Below, in pieces: positions 639 through 64,000 of a stretch of DNA of 64,000 nt (its first letter is position 1; each line of letters opens with the position of its first letter). Below the pieces are notes generated by a model. It ran no database searches. It saw nothing but the letters and a program-made list of their open reading frames with translations, and was not told the origin of the DNA. A program made the translations under genes and the position numbers. Origin of the DNA: Selaginella tamariscina. Its lineage: Eukaryota > Streptophyta > Lycopodiopsida > Selaginellales > Selaginellaceae. Where the stretch lies: the NCBI GenBank assembly GCA_003024785.1, contig PUQB01000519.1, positions 114,772 to 178,771 of the forward strand, read 5' to 3'.

Positions 639-3106
639 TTAGAAGAACGGTGAGAATTTATCTGTAACGAAACATATAATATAAATACCTGGATTGTCAG
701 GGTCACTAGTCACCACTGACGTCCCTGCCTTGTAAATGGTACCTAGTAGACACACAGATTTGTGTCGATAGACCCGATGTTCAAAGATTAACTTCTCATC
801 AAAAGCTGCCCCTATTATTCTAGAAACCGCTACGAGTTGCACTTGTGTTATTTGTTGGCCTTTTTGCATATTTATGAGAATTCCGACTTCAGCAATACGC
901 AGCCTCCATGCAGCAGTGCCATACTCTAAACATTTTTCTAACAAGTCGACTGCTACTTCTCCGAGTTCACAACAACAATTCCGTCCTTAACCAGAACTGT
1001 GTTAGCATAGTGAATGGAGTTTGGTTTCACGAAGCTTGCATTAAGCTTGGCAGTCAGACGCTCTAGAGGCAACATACCATCACGCTCATCCATAAGTTTT
1101 TCCTCAATTGTCGTAAAGAAAAACCTGAAAACGTTAAACTGTTAAACTGTTCAAAATTAAACATATAACAAAATCCTCACCTCAAATGAGCCTTTGTAAA
1201 GGTGAGCTCCATCTCCTTGTTGTTTGTATGCGTAGCATTCAATCCTTTAAAATCTGATTCATACGCACCAAGTATTTGAAGATAGTCCATATCTATAGAT
1301 ATCCTCGCACAAGTGACCTCTTCCAAAGGCATGTATTAGTGTTGATTGATGTGGACCAAACCTTTCAACCCATAACACCTCCACAGTGTTGCAGTACTCA
1401 CGAAATTCCTCCAATGTTTCCACAGTCCAACCATGACTTCTGCTCCAATCGTACAAAACTCTCGTAAGTTCAGTCAGCAATGAACAAAGGCGCAAATAGT
1501 CAGTGTCTATGAGACCATCCACAACGTATGGAAGGTACCACTGTGCGAAGTGTTGATGTTCTTCAGCTTTCCAGAATGACAAACGTGTCATTGGATGATT
1601 CGGTGCACGACCTTTCTTCATACAACTAGTTCGGTTTTGTAGTATGGTTTGCAATCTTGCCATGATAGTGGCTTCTTCCCCGACTTCTTTTAGAGTGGTG
1701 AACAACGCCTCAATAAACACTTTGAGCACATTCAAAGACACCAGATGCATGACGTCGTAAGCAGGCAACTCAAGAATGCTTAACCTGAAAAAGAAAAAAA
1801 TAGAGTTAATGTAACTACAAAGTTCAATTAAATAATGTCCTACAAACCCGTACACATTGTATAGTCGATGTAGCCGGCTGCGACCGCGAACTCCGGAGTC
1901 CCTTTGGAGATGACGCATCCTCGTGGGGTTAGGTGCAGCTTCAACTTCCAAAATAGCACTTTGAATTTCTTGGAAGGAACGTTCTGCTGCTGGTTCCATG
2001 GAATTTTGAAGAATATTTGCATGTTTCCATTGATTGCCATCCTGCAACATAGGCGTTTTGCATTTTCGACAACTGTTTTTCCCACCTGAAACACAAATGA
2101 TAGTGAATGTGCTGGCCAAAAACAAAAAACCATTGCTTACAGAAACCAACTCAGAAGCCAAAATGATGACCACACTAAAAGCTATAAAATGATGCCATAA
2201 CTGAAACTCTTACCACTTGATAGTTTTAGTACTTCACATTGTGCAGGTGATCAGCAGAAAGTACTAATAGTAACACTCTCATTTGAAACTTTTGTGGAAG
2301 TCCTCCATAGTGCTCGGAACTCAAACTATAATCAACTTCCATCCCTTGCACAAATAGTGTTGTCAATTCATCAACAAGAAGATCAAGGAATGGATCGAGG
2401 CTATCTGTGCCGGCTTCCATTTGTGACTTCGGGATGTACATGACCGGGAGGGTCATTGTTGCTGCTGTTGTTCCATGAAGTCCTGGATTCAAGATCTTTG
2501 CATTCAAAGCCCCGCTGCACCTCTGTTTGGTTCGAGCTGACTGAAATCCGTCCCAATGGATTTGCAGTGCTAAATTCCTTGGATCCCCCCTCACAACAAT
2601 CCTCTGAGCTTGGAAAGAAGATTCACAACGCGGACAATCCACCTTGTAGTAGCCATAGGCATCTAGCACAACAGTATCCATACAAGCATCTTTTTCTGGC
2701 CATTGGCGGATGAATTCTTCACAGCATGTGCATTGAATTGGAAGCTCAAATTCTTGGTCAGAATCGAAAAAAGCTTGATATTGCCGCCACATACTGCCCT
2801 CCCAAATCTAGAGATAGTTGATGGAGGTTCATGCACAGCCCTCCCTTTCCAGCTTTCTTTTGCCCGCCAAGGCCGTAGGTCTTCCCAACATATGGATCGT
2901 ACCTTTGCACGGAGGTGAAGCCTTGTAGAAAGTGGTATGTAGTAGAAGGATACTGCATCTTTGATCCCAGCTCCACAACAGGGGCATGCTTCCCTGCATA
3001 CTTCACACCTCTGCCTTAGGTTGGTGCACAGCAACAACCAGATGGGCAGACAATCACGAAGACACCAGTGTATGTTTGTAAATGTGATGCTTGCCTTCGT
3101 ATTCAT
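639..3106 (-). mobile_element. Degenerate Tnp2-like (CACTA/Spm-type) DNA transposase, C-terminal part
   Basis: Reading leftward on the minus strand, the open segments 3106-2663, 2792-2226, 2173-1259 and 944-639 follow the order of Tnp2-type transposases. They hold a cysteine motif (CLRDC then CEVC and CPCC near 3060-2980), a YIPLSTRL segment, HWDGFQSAR, a stretch with FLDLLVDELTTLFVQG, FQMRVLLLVLSADHL, and then PAYDVMHLVSLNVLK. The HWDGFQ and YDVMHL segments match the usual WDGF and DYMH positions of the family. Known role: cut-and-paste transposition of CACTA elements, in the nucleus. The reading changes frame between segments and some gaps may be introns, for example near 2170-2226 and 1790-1850. 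No CACTA termini or target duplication were seen. The family call rests on motif order, so the exact superfamily (CACTA versus KDZ-like) is uncertain. Confidence 0.6.
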
Positions 3107-27812: not shown

Positions 27813-30800
27813 GCACCTCCTCCCTTAAGGACGAGTTCCACGAGTCTTGAGACCTAGTTTAGCAGGATAACGCCGATGGAAAGCAGCAACTTTGGAAGAA
27901 GCATGGAGTAAGTTGGATGCAGGTTCCCAAGTGCGATCGGTAGGCAAATAACCTTTCAATCACCAAGTATTGAAGTTGGTGGCATGAAGACGAGAATCAA
28001 GGATGTGCAACTTCGTACTCAGTTCACCGTCAATGACCACATGAGGGGGAGGAGAAGAAGCACGACAGGAAGAGAAGAAGGATGATACGGCTCCAACAAA
28101 GAGTGTGAAACACAGATGAAGTTTCACCATAGATGGTAACTCGAGTCGAAAAGCTACAGGATTGACCTCAGCCGCAATCCTGTAAGGGCCCAATTGTTGA
28201 AAATCCAACTTAAAGAAGGCCTGTTGGTGCGAATATGCCGACGAAGAAGCCACACGAGATCACCAATCTTGTATGCAGGTGCCGGTTGACGATGAGCATC
28301 AGCATGATGCTTGTACCGTTCCTGTGCCTGCTGAAGATGAACCCGGAGATCCTCATATACCTGACGAAGATGCTGGAGACGATCCTGTACTGCAGGAGCG
28401 GAAGAAGGAGAAGCAGGAGGAGCAAAGTCAAAACGTGGATGGTAGCCTGTAAGAGCAAAGAAAGGTGTCTGGCCTGTAGATGCGTGAACGGAGTTGTTGT
28501 AGGCAAACTCCGCCATTGGAAGAAGGTCCAACCAGTTGTCCTGTTGGTAACTGATGAAGCAGCGAAAGCTCCAAGGTCTGAATCTGCGTTCTGACTGCCC
28601 ATCAGTTTGTGGATGGTATCCTGAAGAAAGGTCCGCTTTAACCTGTAGACTCCGAGAAGTTCTCGCCAAAACTTGGACATGAATTGTGGGCCTCGATCAG
28701 AAACAATGCTCTCAGGAAGACCATGGTGTCGGAAATACTTCGGATCACCAACTCAGTGGTTGTCTGGCCTGTAGCAGTCTTGTGACATGGTAGGAAATGA
28801 GCCTGTTTGGTGAAACGGTCAACCACCACAAGAACTGCATCAAATCCACGAGAAGGAGGAAGATCTGTGAGGAAATCCATAGAAATGGATCTCCAAGGAG
28901 CAGAAGGAACAGGAAGAGGACGAAGAAGACCAGAGGGTGCATGATGAGGCATCTTCACCTATTGCAGGTGTCACAACTCCGTACAAACTTGTCCACAAAA
29001 CCTCGCAACCCAGGCCACCAATAGTTGCGAGTCACCAACTCAACTGTCTTGGCCACACCAAAATGTCCTGTAGCCGGGGTATCATGACAATCTTGTACCA
29101 CACGAGTCTGCAAACACCAACAGAACGTACAGAGACCTTCCCGGTACAGGAGTCCATCCTGTATGAACAAATAACTGTAGTCTGTACGGGAACTGAGGAA
29201 GAGGAACTTGCGATGTCAGGACTAATGTGTGAAAACAATTCCTTGCCAAGTCGTCTGTAGCCAACTGCAAATGATGTCCTGTAGGAGTGTGGAATCTGTG
29301 GAGCCTGATGAACTTGTAGTGCTGCAAGCCGAAGTCGATCAGGACCCAACAACACTTGCTTTTGACAGTCATATGCAGGATCGCCTGGGGTCGGTGCAAG
29401 GTAAGAGCGCCTAGACAATGCATCCGCCTTGCCATTTCAAAAACCAGGCCTGTAGATGATGACGAAATCAAAACGTGATAGGAACTCCGCCCACCTAGCC
29501 TGTCGCTGATGAGAACTCGAGCCGTTTAAAAACTCCAGGTTCTTGTGATCCGTAAGAACTTGTACAGGATGCAGCACCTTCCAGAAATGCCGCCACTCCT
29601 CGAACAAATCCACAATGGCCTTGAGTTCCTTGTCATGAATCTCGTAATTGATCTCTGCCGAAGGAATTTACGAGAGTGAAAAGCTACAGGATGAAGCAAC
29701 TTGTCTTCTCCAACTTGTGATAGAACAGATCCTATGCAAAATCTGAGGCATTTGCTTCAACGAAGAAGGGACGAGAAGGATCAGGATGTGCTAAAATTGG
29801 AGCTGTCGTGAAGGCGTCCTTGAGTGTTGTGAATGCATGTTCCGCCTTGTCGGACCAAAGAACACTCTGTGCGCTTGGTGAGTTCCGTGAGTGGAAGTAC
29901 ACGCTTGGAGAAGTCCTATATGAAACGCCTGTAGAAGTTTGCAAAGCCAAGGAAACATTGTACGTCTCGTACAGACTTGGGCCTCTCCCACTCCGCGATA
30001 GTCTTCACCTTGTGCATGTCCATGGAAACCAGCAGGAGAGACGATGTAGCCCAAGAACTCCACAGTATCCCTGTCGAAGAAACACTTCTCCAACTTCGCA
30101 TACAGGCCATGCTCGCGAAGCCTCTGTAGGACTAGTCGTACATGCTTGTCATGAGCCGCCTGGTCCTTGGAGAAAATCAAAATGTCATCGAGGTAGATTA
30201 CCACAAACTGGTCCAAGAAGTCACAAAGATGTCGTTCACCATGTGTTGGAACACGGCTGGGGCATTGGTAAGTCCGAAAGGCATCACCGTGTACTCGAAG
30301 TGTCCATACCTTGTACGAAAGGCAGTCTTCCACTCATCTGGACGAATCCGTACAAGATTGTAAGCCCCTCGTAAGTCGATCTTCGTGAACACCTTTGCTC
30401 CTTGCAACCGATCGAGAAGTTCCGGATCAATGGCAACGGGTACCATTCCGAATGGTGACTTGATTCAAACCTCTGTAGTCCACAACCAAACAAACTCCCA
30501 TCTTTCTTCTTGACAAAGAAGATAGGTGCTCCTGCAGGGGACTTTGAGTGACGAATGAAGCCGGATGCCAAGTTTTCCTCGATGTACTACGAAGAACCTC
30601 CAATTCTGTAGGTGACAGTGCATAAATTCCGAACGGTGGAGTCTTTCCTTCCACAAGATCAATAGGACAGTCATAGGACCTGTGAACAGGAAGAACTGCA
30701 GCCTTGTGCTTGTCAAAAACGTCCTGAAAGGAGTGATACTTGGATGGCAGGGAAGAAGGAGGAGAAGAAGGAAAGGAGAAGGAGATTGAAAAACAGGGAG

Positions 30801-56500: not shown

Positions 56501-57900
56501 ATTAAGAACAGTAAAACAAAACTTTTGTTATTAAAATATATGGAATGACATTTATTATATGAAATTTCTAAGATCCAAATGAATAACTTTTTTTTATATA
56601 GAAAAATAAATGATCAACATAATCATTAATAATAATTTTAATTGAGAATAATTAGAAAGTTATAGAACAATCGAGGGTAAAAGTTGGAGTTCACAAAATA
56701 ACATGTAATAAGCAATGTAAATAATGTACGAAGAGTGAGTTGAAATACTGGGATAAGTATTCCTTGTGTTTAATCTCCATATGTTAATTTCAACCCTAAT
56801 AAGTTGGTGTAAAATGTTTATATGTGTGTACATGTAAACGTACATATATAATAATATAAAAGAAACACACATATACATGTATGATGTAGCTATGCAGCCC
56901 CCTACACCTAGTCTTGGGGGGTCCACTCTCAATGCACTATATATCATTTGCAGTGACCTATATAACCTCTCGCCTTAAGTTTAAATTTTCTTTAAAAAAA
57001 ACATGGCATTTTCTTACATGTAAGAATTCTTTTTTTTAAAAAAAAGCTCTTCTATTGTTTTATGTAATCAGAAGAGTTAAAATCTTTAATTAATTAATAA
57101 ATGCAAGTTGTAACTAAAATGGGCATGGCTATAGTCCCATTTCCTAATAATTAGCAATTTTAGCTATTTAATTAGCATTTTCTAATATTAAAGGAATATT
57201 CTTTAGAATATATGTTTGAAAACAGAATATTCTTTAGAATATTCTATTTTGTATTCGACCCTTTAATAAATTATAGCATTCATTGAACAAAAATTAATAA
57301 CATTATAAAAGTAGAAGTAAAATTATATAATATATTGCCTAATATAACAATTAAGGAAGAGCATAAGAGGTACATTATATAAATATTGATGTTGTTATTA
57401 AAATATTAATATTTAAATATAACATTATTAATTAAAAATTTGTAGTAGTAATAATATATATATAAAATCCTATAATAATATAGTCAATCTTCCATATCAT
57501 TTTTTAAATTTATATAGTTAAGTAAACAATTTGGTACTATTATTAAAGAGTTTATAATAATTATGAATATTAAATATATGATATTTTATAATTTTGTAAT
57601 TGCTTTAAGCTTCAGAAAAATACATTCCCTTGCAGTTTTGTTAATCGTGACTTTATCAACGCTTCTTGACATCACCCATATCGAATGGATTTAACATTTA
57701 TAAAACATGCTGGGTCTTTTTATTGGGAGACCATGTTTTCTCTAGGCATCCATTATATCTTTCGCTCTCCTTCTCGTGTCGCCTTTTTTGTGGTTTGAAC
57801 CATGCAACCTTAACAATACTATTTTTTGATTACTTCAGGTGTGTCGATAATTTGACCCATCCAAATAGGCTGATTATATGACGCATCTGGAGTAATGAGA
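53544..57900. other. Very AT-rich gene-free block
   Basis: More than 4 kb, almost entirely A/T with frequent TTTAAAA, ATATAT and homopolymers. No open frame with domain content and no RNA gene seen. The first part (53560-53900) may include the 3 prime untranslated region of the coiled-coil gene. Confidence 0.65.
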
Positions 57901-57919
57901 ACCATCATTAGTTTTTTGA

Positions 57920-60640
57920 AGATCCTTGGCAGCAATCAAAGTATGCTTTAGGTTTTTGGTTCCTTTGTCCAACAAAGTGTGGGTTTGCACTTCCACATCA
58001 ACTACTGCTTCTATTCATCTGTGCTTAGTGATGTCATTTCAATTCCTCCGCCACCTTGTTTTAGGCCAAAAAGGGTGTGCAATCTGTACTGTAGACAGTA
58101 GGCCCTTCACAACTCTCAAACAACAGTCTCCCAAAGTCCACAGCTATATAGTTCTGAGTAACCAGTTGCCCTTATCAGAATTCTTTGGCATGCGATTTTG
58201 AACCCATGCCACATATTTTTTGATGCCATCAATAATAACCTCTTGTTCCTTGAGCTGGGCACTCAATGGAATAGGGTCTGGTTGTCCTTCTGGGAGAAGT
58301 GGCTTTCCATCTCTCCACTTTTGAAGAGCATTAAGCCCTCTTTCGGTAACCACTCCTGCTCTGATGGCCGTAACTTGTACTGCATAATAGGTATACCATC
58401 TCGTATGGAGAAAAAGAATTGTAGCGGCACAAGGTGACCAACTAAAGAATCACTCCCTCTTTTATATACTCCTTGAGAAATTTTTTGAAGTCTGGCACCT
58501 CAGTCACAAGCAAAGCACAACTTTTTTTGGAGATGCAATTTTCAAAAAGATTCATCATATGCGGTAAGGTAAGTGCACTTGTCCTTTTTGTAGAGTTGGA
58601 GACCTTGCTGAAGAACGCATCAATATCTTCATGAGTGTGACCAACCATAAGGAAACTGAGCGTGATTGTTTCAAACACACCTTTGGCAACAAGCATTGAC
58701 AAGTATGCTAGCACATATCTAGAAAATAAAAGTAAGTATGAGCTTGAGAAACCCTTAAGTAAAATGATTTACCTATTTTTGTTCTCGCCTGCACAATTAT
58801 CCATCTGTAAAAGCAAATGACGAGGAAGCTTATTTGATGTTGAGGACACATGTACACTATTTGAGCTAGATCCCTCCACTGAACCTGAACTCTCAACAGG
58901 GCCATCTGTTTTTTGTGCAGGTTGCTGACAATGCCTCTCATATTCCCAAGTAGCCTCAAGTGCAGACGTGTTCATGAGAGCATTATGTAAAGGTTGAAGG
59001 TGTTGTTTCTTCACTTTGAGATCACTGATAGGACTTGTCTGTGAGTGGGCTTCAAGGTTTCTGAAACACATGGCTAACGACCCAATAGTGAAATTGGAGT
59101 CGCTAGACCAATGTGGAAGTGAAAAGTGTCCATATGACTCACAACCGTGTCCATGTGTTAGCACACCTGTCAATGAAATCGGAAGTTTCATGACATTTCC
59201 AAGGCACTTTGGTGTTGCAAAGAGCTTTGGAATGCTGGTCTTTGAATGATCCATCTTGTCATGGATCAAGCACAGTACTCTGATGGGCGTGACACAGAAA
59301 GCATGCGGTGTGCATAGTACTGAGACCGGCAAGTTTGTTGTGCAATCATGTGGGCCTCCATCTTCTTTAATGGCAGTGATCTCCACCAAGGTTTTTGCAC
59401 AAGCCTCTGCAGCCTTCAATGATGTACAAGTGTCACACTTGGAAAAGCTAGAGTGTTTTGCAATCTCCACATCCTTAAAATGAGTATTCCATATGTTGTT
59501 GAAGGTACCAGTGCAGATTGCTTGGAGCCCCATCAAACTGAGGCACTTGTTCACATGTTCACACAGCTTCAATTGAGTGTAGATCGAAGGCAAAACCTTG
59601 AGATTTTCCCTGACCCCTGCATTTGTGGTTCGGCATTTGTGAGGCATCCTGTCTGCATTTGCTTCCACAAAAGCCTTGAGTATCTCTATGGCTGCCATAA
59701 TGTGAGAGCGGGTTTTGACCAAGCCAGTGTTCCATGTACTGAGGTTCGCGCTCATGTACTGAGGTTCACCACCTTATTAAATACCATGGATGTACTCTGA
59801 TAACCTGTGTCCGAAGCCATTCCATCAATACACCCAGTTAGTGCAGATATACAAACTCATGCCTTTGCTTTTGGGTGAGCGTACGAAAGACATGTCTACA
59901 TTGGGTAATTTCATTCCGGTCTGCCATCTGACAACACTTCTTCTTGTAGCAGTCAATCGTGGAAATGCTCGTAACACTTTCGGAAGATGTAGGATCCATC
60001 TTCACCCTTTGCTGAAACATGCAGGGGAAGATCTGCAACCCATGAATCGCCTTTTTCTTATAATAGGACCAATGCAAGGAACCTCTTCAAATATGAGTTG
60101 TTCTTCCGGGTTGTTATTATTGAAATCCATGTTGAACCATCTTGCCGTCTTAATTCAGATGTTTGCCACCTCACGAGGGATCCAGGATGCAAAGTGCCAT
60201 TAGGTGAAACCTCTGTCACAACTACACCCACGAAGTCGGACCCTAGTTTCTTTCTGACACTGCTTCCATTGGATTTATAGATGTGATGATGCCTCTCCCA
60301 ACCTCAATCTCATGAAGAAAGAGAATCACCTCATCCATCACAGCAGGCAAGCCATCATCTGGAAAACTCGTGCTACTATTTGTTTGTGACTCTGTATATT
60401 CTGTGTCAGCCTTGACTTCATCCAAATTCCACAATACAGGAGAAACCCTCCTCAAATTCCATTCCAGGAACCTCAACATGCTTGAAAATGGTGTTCACCC
60501 ATACGTACACACAAGATCCTTGGGCAATATTGTGACATGATGCATTATCATCTCGAACTTCCACAGTTCCAGTGCCAACTATCTTGTTGTTCCGAAGAAG
60601 ACATACTTTATCTCCAGTATTATACATATTGTCCTGCACA
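57920..60640 (-). CDS. DUF7869-type, transposase-like gene with a Tnp1-like N-terminal part
   Basis: Reads leftward. From 60640: GDKVCLLRNNKIVGTGTVEV then SCVYVWVNTIFKHVEVP, which resembles the TNP1/EN/SPM domain. A linker part follows (60479-60243). At 60077-59838 there is a C-rich segment (CYKKKCCQMADRNEITQCRH). At 59755-58773 is the core, with HVNKCLSLMGLQAICTGTF, FSKCDTCTSLK, LCLIHDKMDHSKTSIP and LLLQMDNCAGENKNR. A clean 54-base intron (58772-58719) leads to YVLAYLSMLVAKGVFETITL and SFLMVGHTHEDIDAFFSKVS. The tail holds KEQEVIIDGIKKYVAWVQNRMP. The acidic residues in MDNCAGENKN and GHTHEDID recall a DDE nuclease, as suspected for this family. Several frame changes exist. It may be a mobile-element gene or a domesticated one. 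The palindrome array starts 140 bases upstream. Confidence 0.65.
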
Positions 60641-60780
60641 TAAATAATTGTATTATTTATGATATCTGTTTATGCAATATTTTAAGAAATCATAACTGCG
60701 GTTGCTTAATAATATGCATGTGCAATAATACATAATTATGTATAAAGATAATATCTCATGCTTTATTAATATAACTGATG

Positions 60781-61521
60781 GGCGGGATTAATCCCGCCGC
60801 AACTCTACCCCTTCAGAGTGAGTCGGCGGGATTAATCCGCCGTCGACTCTACCCCATCGGAGAGAGTCGGCTGGATTAATCCGCCGCTGATACTTCCTCG
60901 TTGGAGAGAGGCGGCGGGATTAATCCCGCCACGGGCTCCCTCCGACGAGGAAGTACCGGCGGGATTAATCCCGCCGCGATCTTCCTCGTCGAGGAAGTCG
61001 GCGGGATTAATCTCGCCGCCATTCCTCCAACGAGGAAGAGGGCGGGATTAATCCCGCCCACAACACTGACAAGACGGAGAATAGGCGGGATTAATCCCGC
61101 CCACAACTCTGACGACGGGAATAGCGGCGGGATTAATCCCGCCCACAACTCTGACGACGGGGAATAAGCGGCGGGATTAATCCCGCCCAAACTCTCCGAA
61201 ACTATGATTTCAAAAGATTCGGGATGAATTCTGCCCACAAATATTTAAAACAGGGAAGTATGGCGAGATTAATCCCGCCACCCCTTCTCTGCCTCCTAAA
61301 ATGGTTGGCGAGATTAATCCCGCCGACAAACTCTTTTAATAAATTCAAGTAAATCATTATCAGTTGAAGAGTTATCGGCGGGATTAATCTCGCCGCTCTT
61401 TTTAAGAGGCGGAGAAGCATTGCCCGAACTAATTCTGCCATAACTATGAAAGAGATGGTGGCGGGATTAATCCCGCCACCTCTTCAAAGAGGCGAAAAAA
61501 AATGGCCGGATTAATCCCGCC
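60781..61521. repeat. Tandem array of 18-bp perfect palindromes, about 44-bp period
   Basis: GGCGGGATTAATCCCGCC or a near copy starts at 60781, 60825, 60869, 60913, 60958, 61000, 61041, 61084, 61136, 61170, 61262, 61307, 61377, 61460 and 61504. More worn copies lie near 61213, 61418 and 61560. Spacing is mostly 41-45 bases. Spacers vary (often CTCTACCCC..., TTCCTCG..GAGGAAG or ACAACTCTGACGACGG), so the palindrome is the conserved part. The stretch is strikingly GC-rich for this window. Open frames through it on both strands (GGINPA and AGLIPP repeats) follow from the palindrome and are not evidence of a protein. Confidence 0.95.
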
Positions 61522-61529
61522 CCGGCTAA

Positions 61530-62100
61530 CCGAGAATATTAAGTTAAAGGTATATTTAAACGGGATAAATCCTAACAGAATATATTGTAATCCTAATGCA
61601 TTCCTAAATCCCTAAATTCTAAAATTTAAGAGAGAATGTAAGAGAGTGAATCTTTATAAATATATCTAAATTTGTTTATAATACTTACTTGTAAACAGCA
61701 CTGAAGGCGCCGTGCTTTCCTATAAACAATAGCGCACCAATTTAATGTCGCTCCTGAGCTGATCACTAAGAAGAAAAAAGAAAATCTGAAGAGTGAAAAA
61801 TAAAGAAATGAAAAACCCTTGCCGGAGAAAGAACCAGATCTGAATTTGAGTGGGAAATTAAATGTATTTTCAAATTTACATGTCAGACTGATAATACTTA
61901 TGTCAGAAATTCGAAATTTTTGAAATAACAGAAAAGAAAATTTAAGATGAGTTGAAACAAATAACCGACAGTCTGACATATATACTTCCAATTCCAATGA
62001 GTGTTTTAAAATTGCATTTAATGTTATTCAAGTGCTTCAAGCTGTTTAATATTACGAAATTTTTGTAATTGTTCTACATTCTTAATATTCAAGTATATAT
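61530..62100. other. AT-rich spacer after the palindrome array
   Basis: No gene seen. A 123-residue minus-strand frame (61997-61626) is F/S-rich with no recognisable domain. Confidence 0.5.
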
Positions 62101-62153
62101 TATTGAGTTTATATTATATATATATATACACTAATACAATAAATAAATTGATA

Positions 62154-62885
62154 TATTATTATGTATCATTTAAAATATATTCATAGTCTGTTTATTATTA
62201 TTATTTTCTTAATTACTCGAGTAATTAATTTACATTTCCTACTATTAATGGGATATTCTTTATTATTTTCTTAATATTGAAAGAATATTCCAATATTAAA
62301 CCTGATTATCATAATTAAATTAGTCTTATTCTTAATTATCTCAGTAATTATTCTACATTTGTATATATTAATAGGATTTTCTCAATTAATTTGTTATTAT
62401 TTCAAGAATATTCCTATGTTAAACCTTATTATCAATATTAAATTAATATATATTATTAAAACTAATATACTATATATTAGATAAAATGATGTATTATTAT
62501 GTATAATTTAAAATATGTTCATAGTGTGTATATTAATTTCATTTTCTTAATTACTTGAGTAATTAATCTTCTTTATATTAATGTGATATTATTTATTATT
62601 TCTTATTATTCCAAGAATATTTCAATATTAAACATGATTATCATAATTAATTTAGTTAATTATTTCAATACTTGATCTACATTTGTATATATTAATGGGA
62701 TTTTCTCAATTAATTTCTTATTATTTCAAGAATATTCTAATGTTAAACCTTATTATCAATATTAAATTAATATATATTATTAAAACTATATATGGCTATA
62801 TATTAGATAAAATCATATATTATTATGTATAATTTAAAATATGTTCATAGTGTGTATATTAATATTATTTTCTTAATTATTCGAT
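62154..62885 (+). repeat. AT-rich tandem repeat, unit about 330 bp, just over two copies
   Basis: The anchor tattattatgtat occurs at 62154, about 62492 and about 62818. Each is followed by aatttaaaatat(g)ttcatagt and a long AT-rich stretch including ggattttctcaattaattt (present in the last two units). Neighbouring units are easily alignable by eye. Confidence 0.7.
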
Positions 62886-63083
62886 GTTTGTTTTGCACAT
62901 ATTATATATAACACGATTATAAATTTATATATACACGTGCACACGCATTAGAAGCACTTACAAAGACACATATGCACACACATGCACATTGCCCTAAACC
63001 AAACTTGAGAAATTATATGTTGCTTCTTTATTGAAAAACATCATGTTCAACGCATGTATGATTTATGTACTCAATCTGTGTGT

Positions 63084-63760
63084 ATGTAACACATTGAATT
63101 TACACATGTAATATATATGTATGTTCTGTGTGTATACACGTGTGTATGTATATATGTGTACTAATATATGCAATGTGTACGGTTTTCATTTGTTAACACT
63201 CTATCTCTCTCTCATACATACACAGTGTCACCATGCATAATCCCTTCTCTCATACATACACACCATGCATGATCATGATCCATAATATGTAGCCTGTCTC
63301 TTCTCTCATACATACACACCATGCATGATCCATAATATGTACTGATGTTACAATATTATGTAATATGTATAATGTATATCTGTGTATAACACTCACTCCT
63401 CTCATACATAAACACCATGCATGATCCATCCTAACCCTAAACCCTAAACCCTAAACCCTATGTAACACATTGAATTTACACATGTAATATGTATGTATGT
63501 TTGTGTGTATACACGTGTGTATGTATATGTGTGTACTAATATATGCAATGACATTGTGTATGAATTTAATTTGTTAACACTCTTTCTCTTCTCTCATACA
63601 TACACACCATGCATGATCCATGTAAATATGTACTGTCTCTCTTCTCTCAAACATACACACCATGCATGATCCATAATATGTATTGTCACTCTTCTCTCAT
63701 ACATACACACCATACATGATCCTGTACTCTGTCTCTCTAATATTAATATGTACTAATATG
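63084..63760 (+). repeat. Subtelomere-like tandem repeat, unit about 376 bp
   Basis: The block starting atgtaacacattgaattta at 63084 recurs at 63460 with near identity. Inside each unit a shorter phrase (ctctcatacatacacaccatgcatgatccat) repeats three or four times, about eight in all between 63210 and 63720. Confidence 0.8.
63427..63459 (+). repeat. Interstitial plant telomere repeats
   Basis: CCTAACCCTAAA followed by further CCCTAAA units, about four in all, at the boundary between two units of the 376-base repeat. Arabidopsis-type telomere sequence (TTTAGGG on the other strand). Confidence 0.85.
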
Positions 63761-64000
63761 TATGTATGTCTATGTGTATAATACTATGTGTGTATATATG
63801 TATCGCTGCACGTGAAACTTTAACACTCTCATGGACACACACGTGTTAAACCCTTGCATGATATTTATTCTTGGGGTGTATGTGATACACGCACACGCAC
63901 ACACAGATAATATAATGAAAGAATATTCGTTTAGGGCGAATCTATAGTTTATTCTTTTTAGGGTTTAAGTATATTCTTAGAAGGAATATTCGATTAGGGT

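Follow-up and report, generated by a model that had tools for sequence, protein, structure and literature searches.

We describe an array of palindromes in a stretch of 64,000 nucleotides from the genome of Selaginella tamariscina (contig PUQB01000519.1, positions 114,772 to 178,771 of the forward strand; hereafter the window). The array consists of an 18-bp sequence, GGCGGGATTAATCCCGCC, repeated close upstream of a gene of DUF7869, a family of unknown function in Pfam. Such palindrome arrays are internal parts of an abundant DNA transposon with terminal inverted repeats (TIRs), and this transposon carries two divergent genes, each with an array of its own in front of it. We favour, with about an even chance of being right, the view that these internal, promoter-proximal arrays of a 14-15 kb TIR transposon are regulatory dyad sites whose reader is encoded by the element itself.

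The palindrome array in the window

The array, which we call array B, has 17 slots of the palindrome within 60781-61521: eight are perfect, five have one mismatch and four have 3-6 mismatches, which leaves 13 sites that differ from GGCGGGATTAATCCCGCC by at most one mismatch. When up to three mismatches are allowed the window holds 14 matches, every one of them inside this interval, against a mean of 0.01 in dinucleotide shuffles. The slots follow each other at about 44 bp (41-48 bp, the exceptions being one of 70 bp and one of 38 bp). Over the 13 strong copies the information content is 1.4-2.0 bits per column throughout columns 1-18; the two columns adjoining the palindrome have 0.26 and 0.45 bit, single columns farther out reach up to 1.0 bit through a bias in the flanks (purine on the left 0.87, pyrimidine on the right 0.71). 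The spacers lose identity with distance, down to 0.45 between units nine apart (0.44 after shuffling), while the palindromes of the units stay 0.83-0.89 identical. The initial annotation had read some fifteen palindromes at about 44-bp spacing from the sequence, with diverging spacers and a gene close by; all of this stands, the reading frame beginning about 150 bp away. Several spacers in the left part of the array (60781-61058) are imperfect inverted repeats themselves.

Arrays and DUF7869 genes across the genome

In the 300.7-Mb assembly that we searched (the window is positions 114772-178771 of its contig C859), GGCGGGATTAATCCCGCC with at most two mismatches occurs at 59,903 sites and the reversed pattern at none. 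We took ten stretches, two of which share 4 kb, from the palindrome places at the head of the list, and added one that contains the window copy. These 11 stretches have in common blocks of more than 2.5 kb at 83-98% identity, with lower values in a repeat-rich spacer, and on their sequences they belong to one transposon family. DUF7869 sequence is present in eight of the 11 (seven of the ten picked by palindrome); in stretch L062 a second copy truncates the gene, L065 spans the side of the second array (array A), and L068 stops at array B.

The Pfam model of the family, PF25273, has at least 300 matches in the genome (150 of 4,249 first-look candidates were scored) and none in any of 14 control genomes. 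From these matches we picked 20 by hand on 20 contigs, including the best-scoring among the matches listed, and inspected the 1.4 kb lying 1.9-3.3 kb upstream of each, the predicted place of array B; as controls we used, on 12 of these contigs, stretches at a distance of 30-40 kb. An array stands at the predicted place in 18 of the 20 (5-19 sites), versus one of the 12 controls, and that single positive control is a piece of the same transposon family, with array A. The search with two mismatches that had been suggested thus yielded tens of thousands of sites, and the array lies, as had been proposed, in a mobile element with a DUF7869 gene on many contigs; it is neither a single occurrence nor a general satellite far from such genes.

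The exact 18-mer also occurs elsewhere, in one viral contig stretch (a single copy) and in 49 bacterial or archaeal stretches (at most two in each), and plasmids gave no match to the palindrome array. Chance or a bacterial origin was considered and rejected: the bacterial, archaeal and viral 18-mers are isolated GC-rich palindromes and form no arrays.

Ends, size and target duplication of the transposon

Aligned copies have a sharp right end, ...CATGCCCATTTTAGTTACAACTTGCAT, beyond which the flanks differ between copies; the right end of the window copy recurs at five other places in the first loci, each with different flanks. A search with the inverse of the right end located the left end, at L071:8022. 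The ends read ATGCAC...TTGCAT, or at greater length ATGCA[C/T]GTTG... on the left and ...CAACTTGCAT on the right. A 26-mer of the left end, with at most one mismatch, is found 1,478 times genome-wide (742 + 736; reversed control 0). The predicted ends were present in 8/8 one-kb stretches and, for eight further copies, in 15/16 stretches (one degenerate; one left end missing), and further right ends were found as predicted in nine cases out of ten. The end-to-end length is 13.8, 14.8, 14.8 and 15.4 kb in the four copies measured.

With the boundaries fixed at ATGCAC/TTGCAT, which were the best of 25 offset pairs tried per length, the 4-bp flanks are identical in a third of end pairs (6/19, versus 3/342 mismatched pairs). 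The duplications seen are ACTT, TCTT, ACCA, ATAA, ATGT and CTTC; no duplication of five or more base pairs is consistent among the 19 pairs. This set excludes the copies on C14 (right end not found), C225 (right end mutated) and C358 (left end not found); on C80, which has two close left ends, the matching one was kept, and without C80 the count is 5/18. Aligning loci, as the initial annotation had recommended, has brought out shared ends and, in a third of the pairs, a target duplication.

Rearranged copies were met as well. At L071:1089-1168 a right end has broken off and adjoins a short piece of DUF7869 in inverted orientation, after which comes a second partial copy; by its sequence this is a local rearrangement of copies. 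Internally deleted copies lie on C1182 (L128:724) and C633 (L129); one of them lacks array B and the gene start, and in one the left end region is fused to the DUF7869 gene.

Two divergent genes, two arrays

From left to right in gene orientation, the element consists of the left TIR, gene 1 (leftward), array A, an AT-rich spacer, array B, the DUF7869 gene (gene 2, rightward) and the right TIR. Transcription is divergent, gene 1 leading away from array A and the DUF7869 gene away from array B. Array A has 20-28 sites with at most four mismatches (five copies) and array B 9-18 (ten arrays), so that the number per array ranges from 9 to 28 between copies. The spacer between them is 3-4 kb long and rich in AT and microsatellites; short telomere-like AACCCTA arrays occur in it, at 63433-63460 of the window and in another copy at L083:883-905. 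From array A it is about 5.2 kb outward to the left end, and from array B about 3.7 kb to the right end. The arrays are not terminal, because each precedes a gene of the divergent pair, kilobases from the ends. The window copy is homologous to other copies as far as the end of the contig, and its array A, gene 1 and left end are off the contig. The features are:

57101..64000, minus strand: on-contig part of the transposon copy (the contig ends at 64000)
57101..57127, minus strand: right TIR, CATGCCCATTTTAGTTACAACTTGCAT in gene orientation, from the alignment of copies
58051..60669, minus strand: decayed DUF7869 gene (putative DDE transposase), from Pfam, open reading frames (ORFs) and protein comparison
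60669-60421 (N-terminal ORF), 59987-59820, 59731-58457, 58475-58308 and 58308-58051, minus strand: pieces of the DUF7869 gene, in several frames
60781..61521, no strand: array B, 17 slots upstream of the DUF7869 gene
61559..61576, no strand: outermost slot of the palindrome, decayed and very weak (6 mismatches)
61577..64000, no strand: spacer between the two arrays, rich in AT and microsatellites, with homology to other copies
L065:9236-9853 and L068:1-3876 (other copies): gene 1 regions, with a PF03031 piece and long ORFs of no known family

The DUF7869 gene is identified in the window by Pfam matches of 4e-13 and 1.1e-26 in its ORFs. Its pieces, in several frames, are 41% identical over 391 residues to the protein P0079 (745 aa), and to judge from these frames the window copy is decayed; several other copies in the genome keep long open frames of up to 1,092 aa. 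The N-terminal ORF (60669-60421, minus strand) has its first ATG at about 60627, and a protein search with it gave no relatives. A structure model of the DUF7869 protein finds its best structural matches in Mos1, Metnase and retroviral integrases; the protein is a putative DDE transposase. One relative (P0102) carries the name of a Physcomitrium patens protein. In viral contigs 19 stretches fit a DUF7869 pattern and none was confirmed, and the term DUF7869 is absent from the open-access literature searched.

Gene 1 is represented by a 478-aa ORF in L068 that has no Pfam match above the cut-off and by a piece in L065 that matches NIF/FCP1-type phosphatases (PF03031, 2.4e-7). ParB-like (INGQH) and methyltransferase-like motifs, suspected in gene 1, were dropped since Pfam, NCBIfam and PHROGs gave no support, and neither did PDB sequences or phages for the 478-aa ORF.

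The gene next to the array had initially been credited with a Tnp1-like segment. This does not hold for the window, where PF03017 (TNP1/EN/SPM) has no match; what survives is a sub-threshold match in the N-terminal part of better DUF7869 copies (E 0.08-0.095 in three of the six proteins scanned; 13 bits, the Pfam cut-off being 21). The Tnp1-like stretch of the DUF7869 protein also aligns weakly with the gene 1 product (BLASTP 2e-4, one comparison).

What is conserved in the site

The 11 stretches contain 322 sites with at most four mismatches, 128 of them perfect, and the spacing of sites across the stretches peaks at 44-45 bp. Among the sites with one or two mismatches, positions A7, T8, A11 and T12 are changed twice in all and the central T9/A10 19 times. 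Sequence, rather than mere symmetry, is kept in the palindrome, because none of the 42 two-mismatch sites is compensated so as to restore a palindrome; in only one of the 42 do the changes fall at paired positions. The pattern is as expected for two half-sites, GGCGGGAT/ATCCCGCC, whose bases a dimer or a protein with twin domains would recognise while tolerating changes in the 2-bp centre, because conservation stops at the edges of the palindrome, the centre is tolerant and compensation is absent.

The commonest change is C-to-T at CCG (48 at two positions, versus 33 at four CG and 42 at six CHH positions), and this excess at the CCG cytosine hints at non-CG methylation. CpG retention is 0.58-0.77 in the spacers, 0.76 in gene 1 and the A-B spacer, and 0.35 in the DUF7869 gene.

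What the arrays may do

The arrays are likely to be dyad sites for a dimeric regulator common to both genes, either encoded by the element or the host E2F; the binding of a protein, the identity of the binder and the regulatory effect are what we infer from the evidence above. Array B would serve the rightward DUF7869 gene and array A the leftward gene 1, as promoter-proximal sites. In each palindrome a loosely kept 2-bp centre would separate two half-sites GGCGGGAT, and a DNA-binding protein that is a dimer or has twin domains would recognise the dyad. With many sites per promoter, one protein could control both divergent genes together, whether for autoregulation or to prevent silencing of the element, in the way that VANC acts on VANDAL elements. 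We consider the likeliest reader to be a protein encoded by the element and bearing the Tnp1-like module apparently common to both genes; we favour such a reader because of the size of the arrays (compare the soybean element Tgmt*, below), their place upstream of both genes and the precedent of VANC.

Several observations weigh against this interpretation. Two of the 20 DUF7869 copies have no array B, both being the same transposon with internal deletions that remove it. At the fixed boundary 13 of the 19 end pairs (one with an N in the flank) show no duplication, possibly the result of recombination between copies or of slipped ends. The copies share ancestry, so that site counts overstate independence; the G4C changes, for instance, come mostly from the same edge unit. 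CpG retention was considered as a sign that the arrays are protected and then dropped: it is as high in gene 1 and in the A-B spacer, hence nothing peculiar to the arrays and no proof of protection. The putative Tnp1-like module falls under Pfam's cut-off, and the unrelated Phage_cement_2 scored equally well or better in two of the proteins that match PF03017. Finally, each half-site contains the E2F core exactly, which speaks for a reader from the host.

If the reader were the host's, the arrays would be E2F/DP sites, and the element would fire both its genes in dividing (S-phase) cells and spread E2F-type sites, a possibility that we entertain only tentatively. The palindrome can be written GGCGGGA-TTAA-TCCCGCC, with two inverted TCCCGCC cores, and that core (as it is given in the relevant passage of PMC5464667) stands on both strands of every perfect copy, at a place upstream of both genes that fits. 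However, the longer consensus as quoted, TTTSSCGSS / TYTCCCGCC, needs T,T (or T,Y) before the core, where the site has A,A, and conservation runs one base past the core (T8/A11). Moreover, arrays this large look like those of element-encoded binders, as in Tgmt* with 24 repeats in 732 bp (described in part of PMC2613891). C-to-G changes were tried as a test for E2F and dropped, most of them being one inherited edge unit.

It is improbable that the arrays are functionless, that is, young tandem repeats that grow by unequal crossing-over and hitch-hike in the element. Neighbouring units of array B do have spacers in common (identity 0.92 for 61084/61126) and array length does vary from 9 to 28 sites, but homogenisation would keep the spacers too, and 11 unit pairs with spacer identity ≤0.50 have identical palindromes; in the copies examined, moreover, two arrays are kept, one per gene start.

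A subterminal transposase-binding end of a CACTA/Spm-like element, as the initial annotation had suggested, is very improbable: the 24 subterminal stem-loop repeats of Tgmt* in 732 bp come close to array B in size (PMC2613891, the section on this element) and there is the sub-threshold TNP1/EN/SPM match, but the mapped ends contradict it, since about 3.7 and 5.2 kb separate them from the arrays, the ends are ATGCAC...TTGCAT rather than CACTA, and the duplication is of 4 bp instead of 3. Equally improbable is a role of structure only, through cruciforms (the cruciform-forming satellite of the initial annotation), RNA hairpins or perfection by hairpin-templated repair, for which the dyads are perfect and some spacers of the window array fold as weak hairpins (summed energy z = -2.9 versus mononucleotide shuffles) but which predicts compensated pairs and different perfect palindromes, of which the two-mismatch sites give no sign.

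Other contents of the window and significance

Elsewhere in the window, 2226-2807 (minus strand) has a weak Transposase_21 (tnp2, CACTA) match, E 0.0022, under the cut-off and in another element, and 29791-30333 (minus strand) is a retroelement-like stretch with an RVT_1 match of 1.3e-12. Other matches are to F-box/Kelch-like, RF-1 and SLC35F proteins, which point to a genome of the plant lineage; Rfam and tRNA scans of the window found none.

DUF7869 gains a concrete genomic setting: its gene belongs to a TIR transposon that is abundant and whose ends are mapped. The element, with its arrays in pairs, some 1,500 left ends and an 18-bp site of exact sequence, is a natural system for how transposons build arrays of regulatory sites, and it shows how a mobile element can make and spread tens of thousands of near-identical sites of a protein-binding kind. 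Were the reader E2F, the genome would hold a very large transposon-made reservoir of cell-cycle-type sites; were it encoded by the element, this would be a second case of the VANC principle. In the open-access literature searched, pieces of the motif occur in three papers, whose contexts are unrelated to judge by the titles.

Comparison with known systems

The CACTA elements (En/Spm, Tgmt*) resemble this one, as far as the account in PMC2613891 extends, in being large plant TIR elements with many copies of a short motif of stem-loop form (17 bp there) and, possibly, a TNP1-like segment. Here, however, the arrays are internal, the ends are ATGCAC/TTGCAT, the duplication is of 4 bp, and the ORFs of gene 2 in the window match DUF7869 and not tnp2 (Transposase_21); the gene 1 ORFs in L068 and L065 gave no match to tnp2 either, about 1 kb by the left end being unscanned. 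By the definitions in the relevant passage of PMC10741241, CACTA ends start with CACTA/CACTG and finish with TAGTG/CAGTG, and the target duplication is of 3 bp; the present element is not a CACTA element, because its ends and duplication differ from these.

The VANDAL/VANC system of Arabidopsis, in the sections of PMC5735166 that describe it, likewise has short motifs in tandem arrays outside the coding sequence, some of them in front of a gene of the element; the density of the motifs matters, and the arrays gain and lose units between copies. The VANC21 motif, YAGTATTAY, is non-palindromic (PMC5735166, same sections), whereas here the motif is a palindrome and two arrays face two divergent genes. 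Pfam families of VANC-type anti-silencing proteins or MULE transposases had no match in the ORFs scanned, and VANC is likened here by description.

With Sola, as characterised in a passage of PMC10741241, the element has in common a 4-bp duplication, a size that can exceed 15 kb and an occurrence in the moss Physcomitrella; Sola has a DDD transposase, and the protein here is a putative DDD-like one. The likeness in duplication, protein, size and moss distribution is by description, not by sequence, so that the element may be said to resemble Sola, and that passage does not mention such arrays. Transposons with E2F sites (in the relevant part of PMC5464667) also have exact TCCCGCC cores within the element, but here the twin cores form a perfect dyad that is repeated 9-28 times at two places.

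It is conceivable, though doubtful, that this is a type at the superfamily level not described before: a DDE element of the DUF7869 kind whose two divergent genes each have in front of them an array of a self-made dyad site, and which runs an anti-silencing circuit of its own or taps a host cell-cycle factor. If so, its spread would have placed some 60,000 sites, with up to about 120,000 E2F-type cores, in a 300-Mb genome, and these could titrate the host factor.
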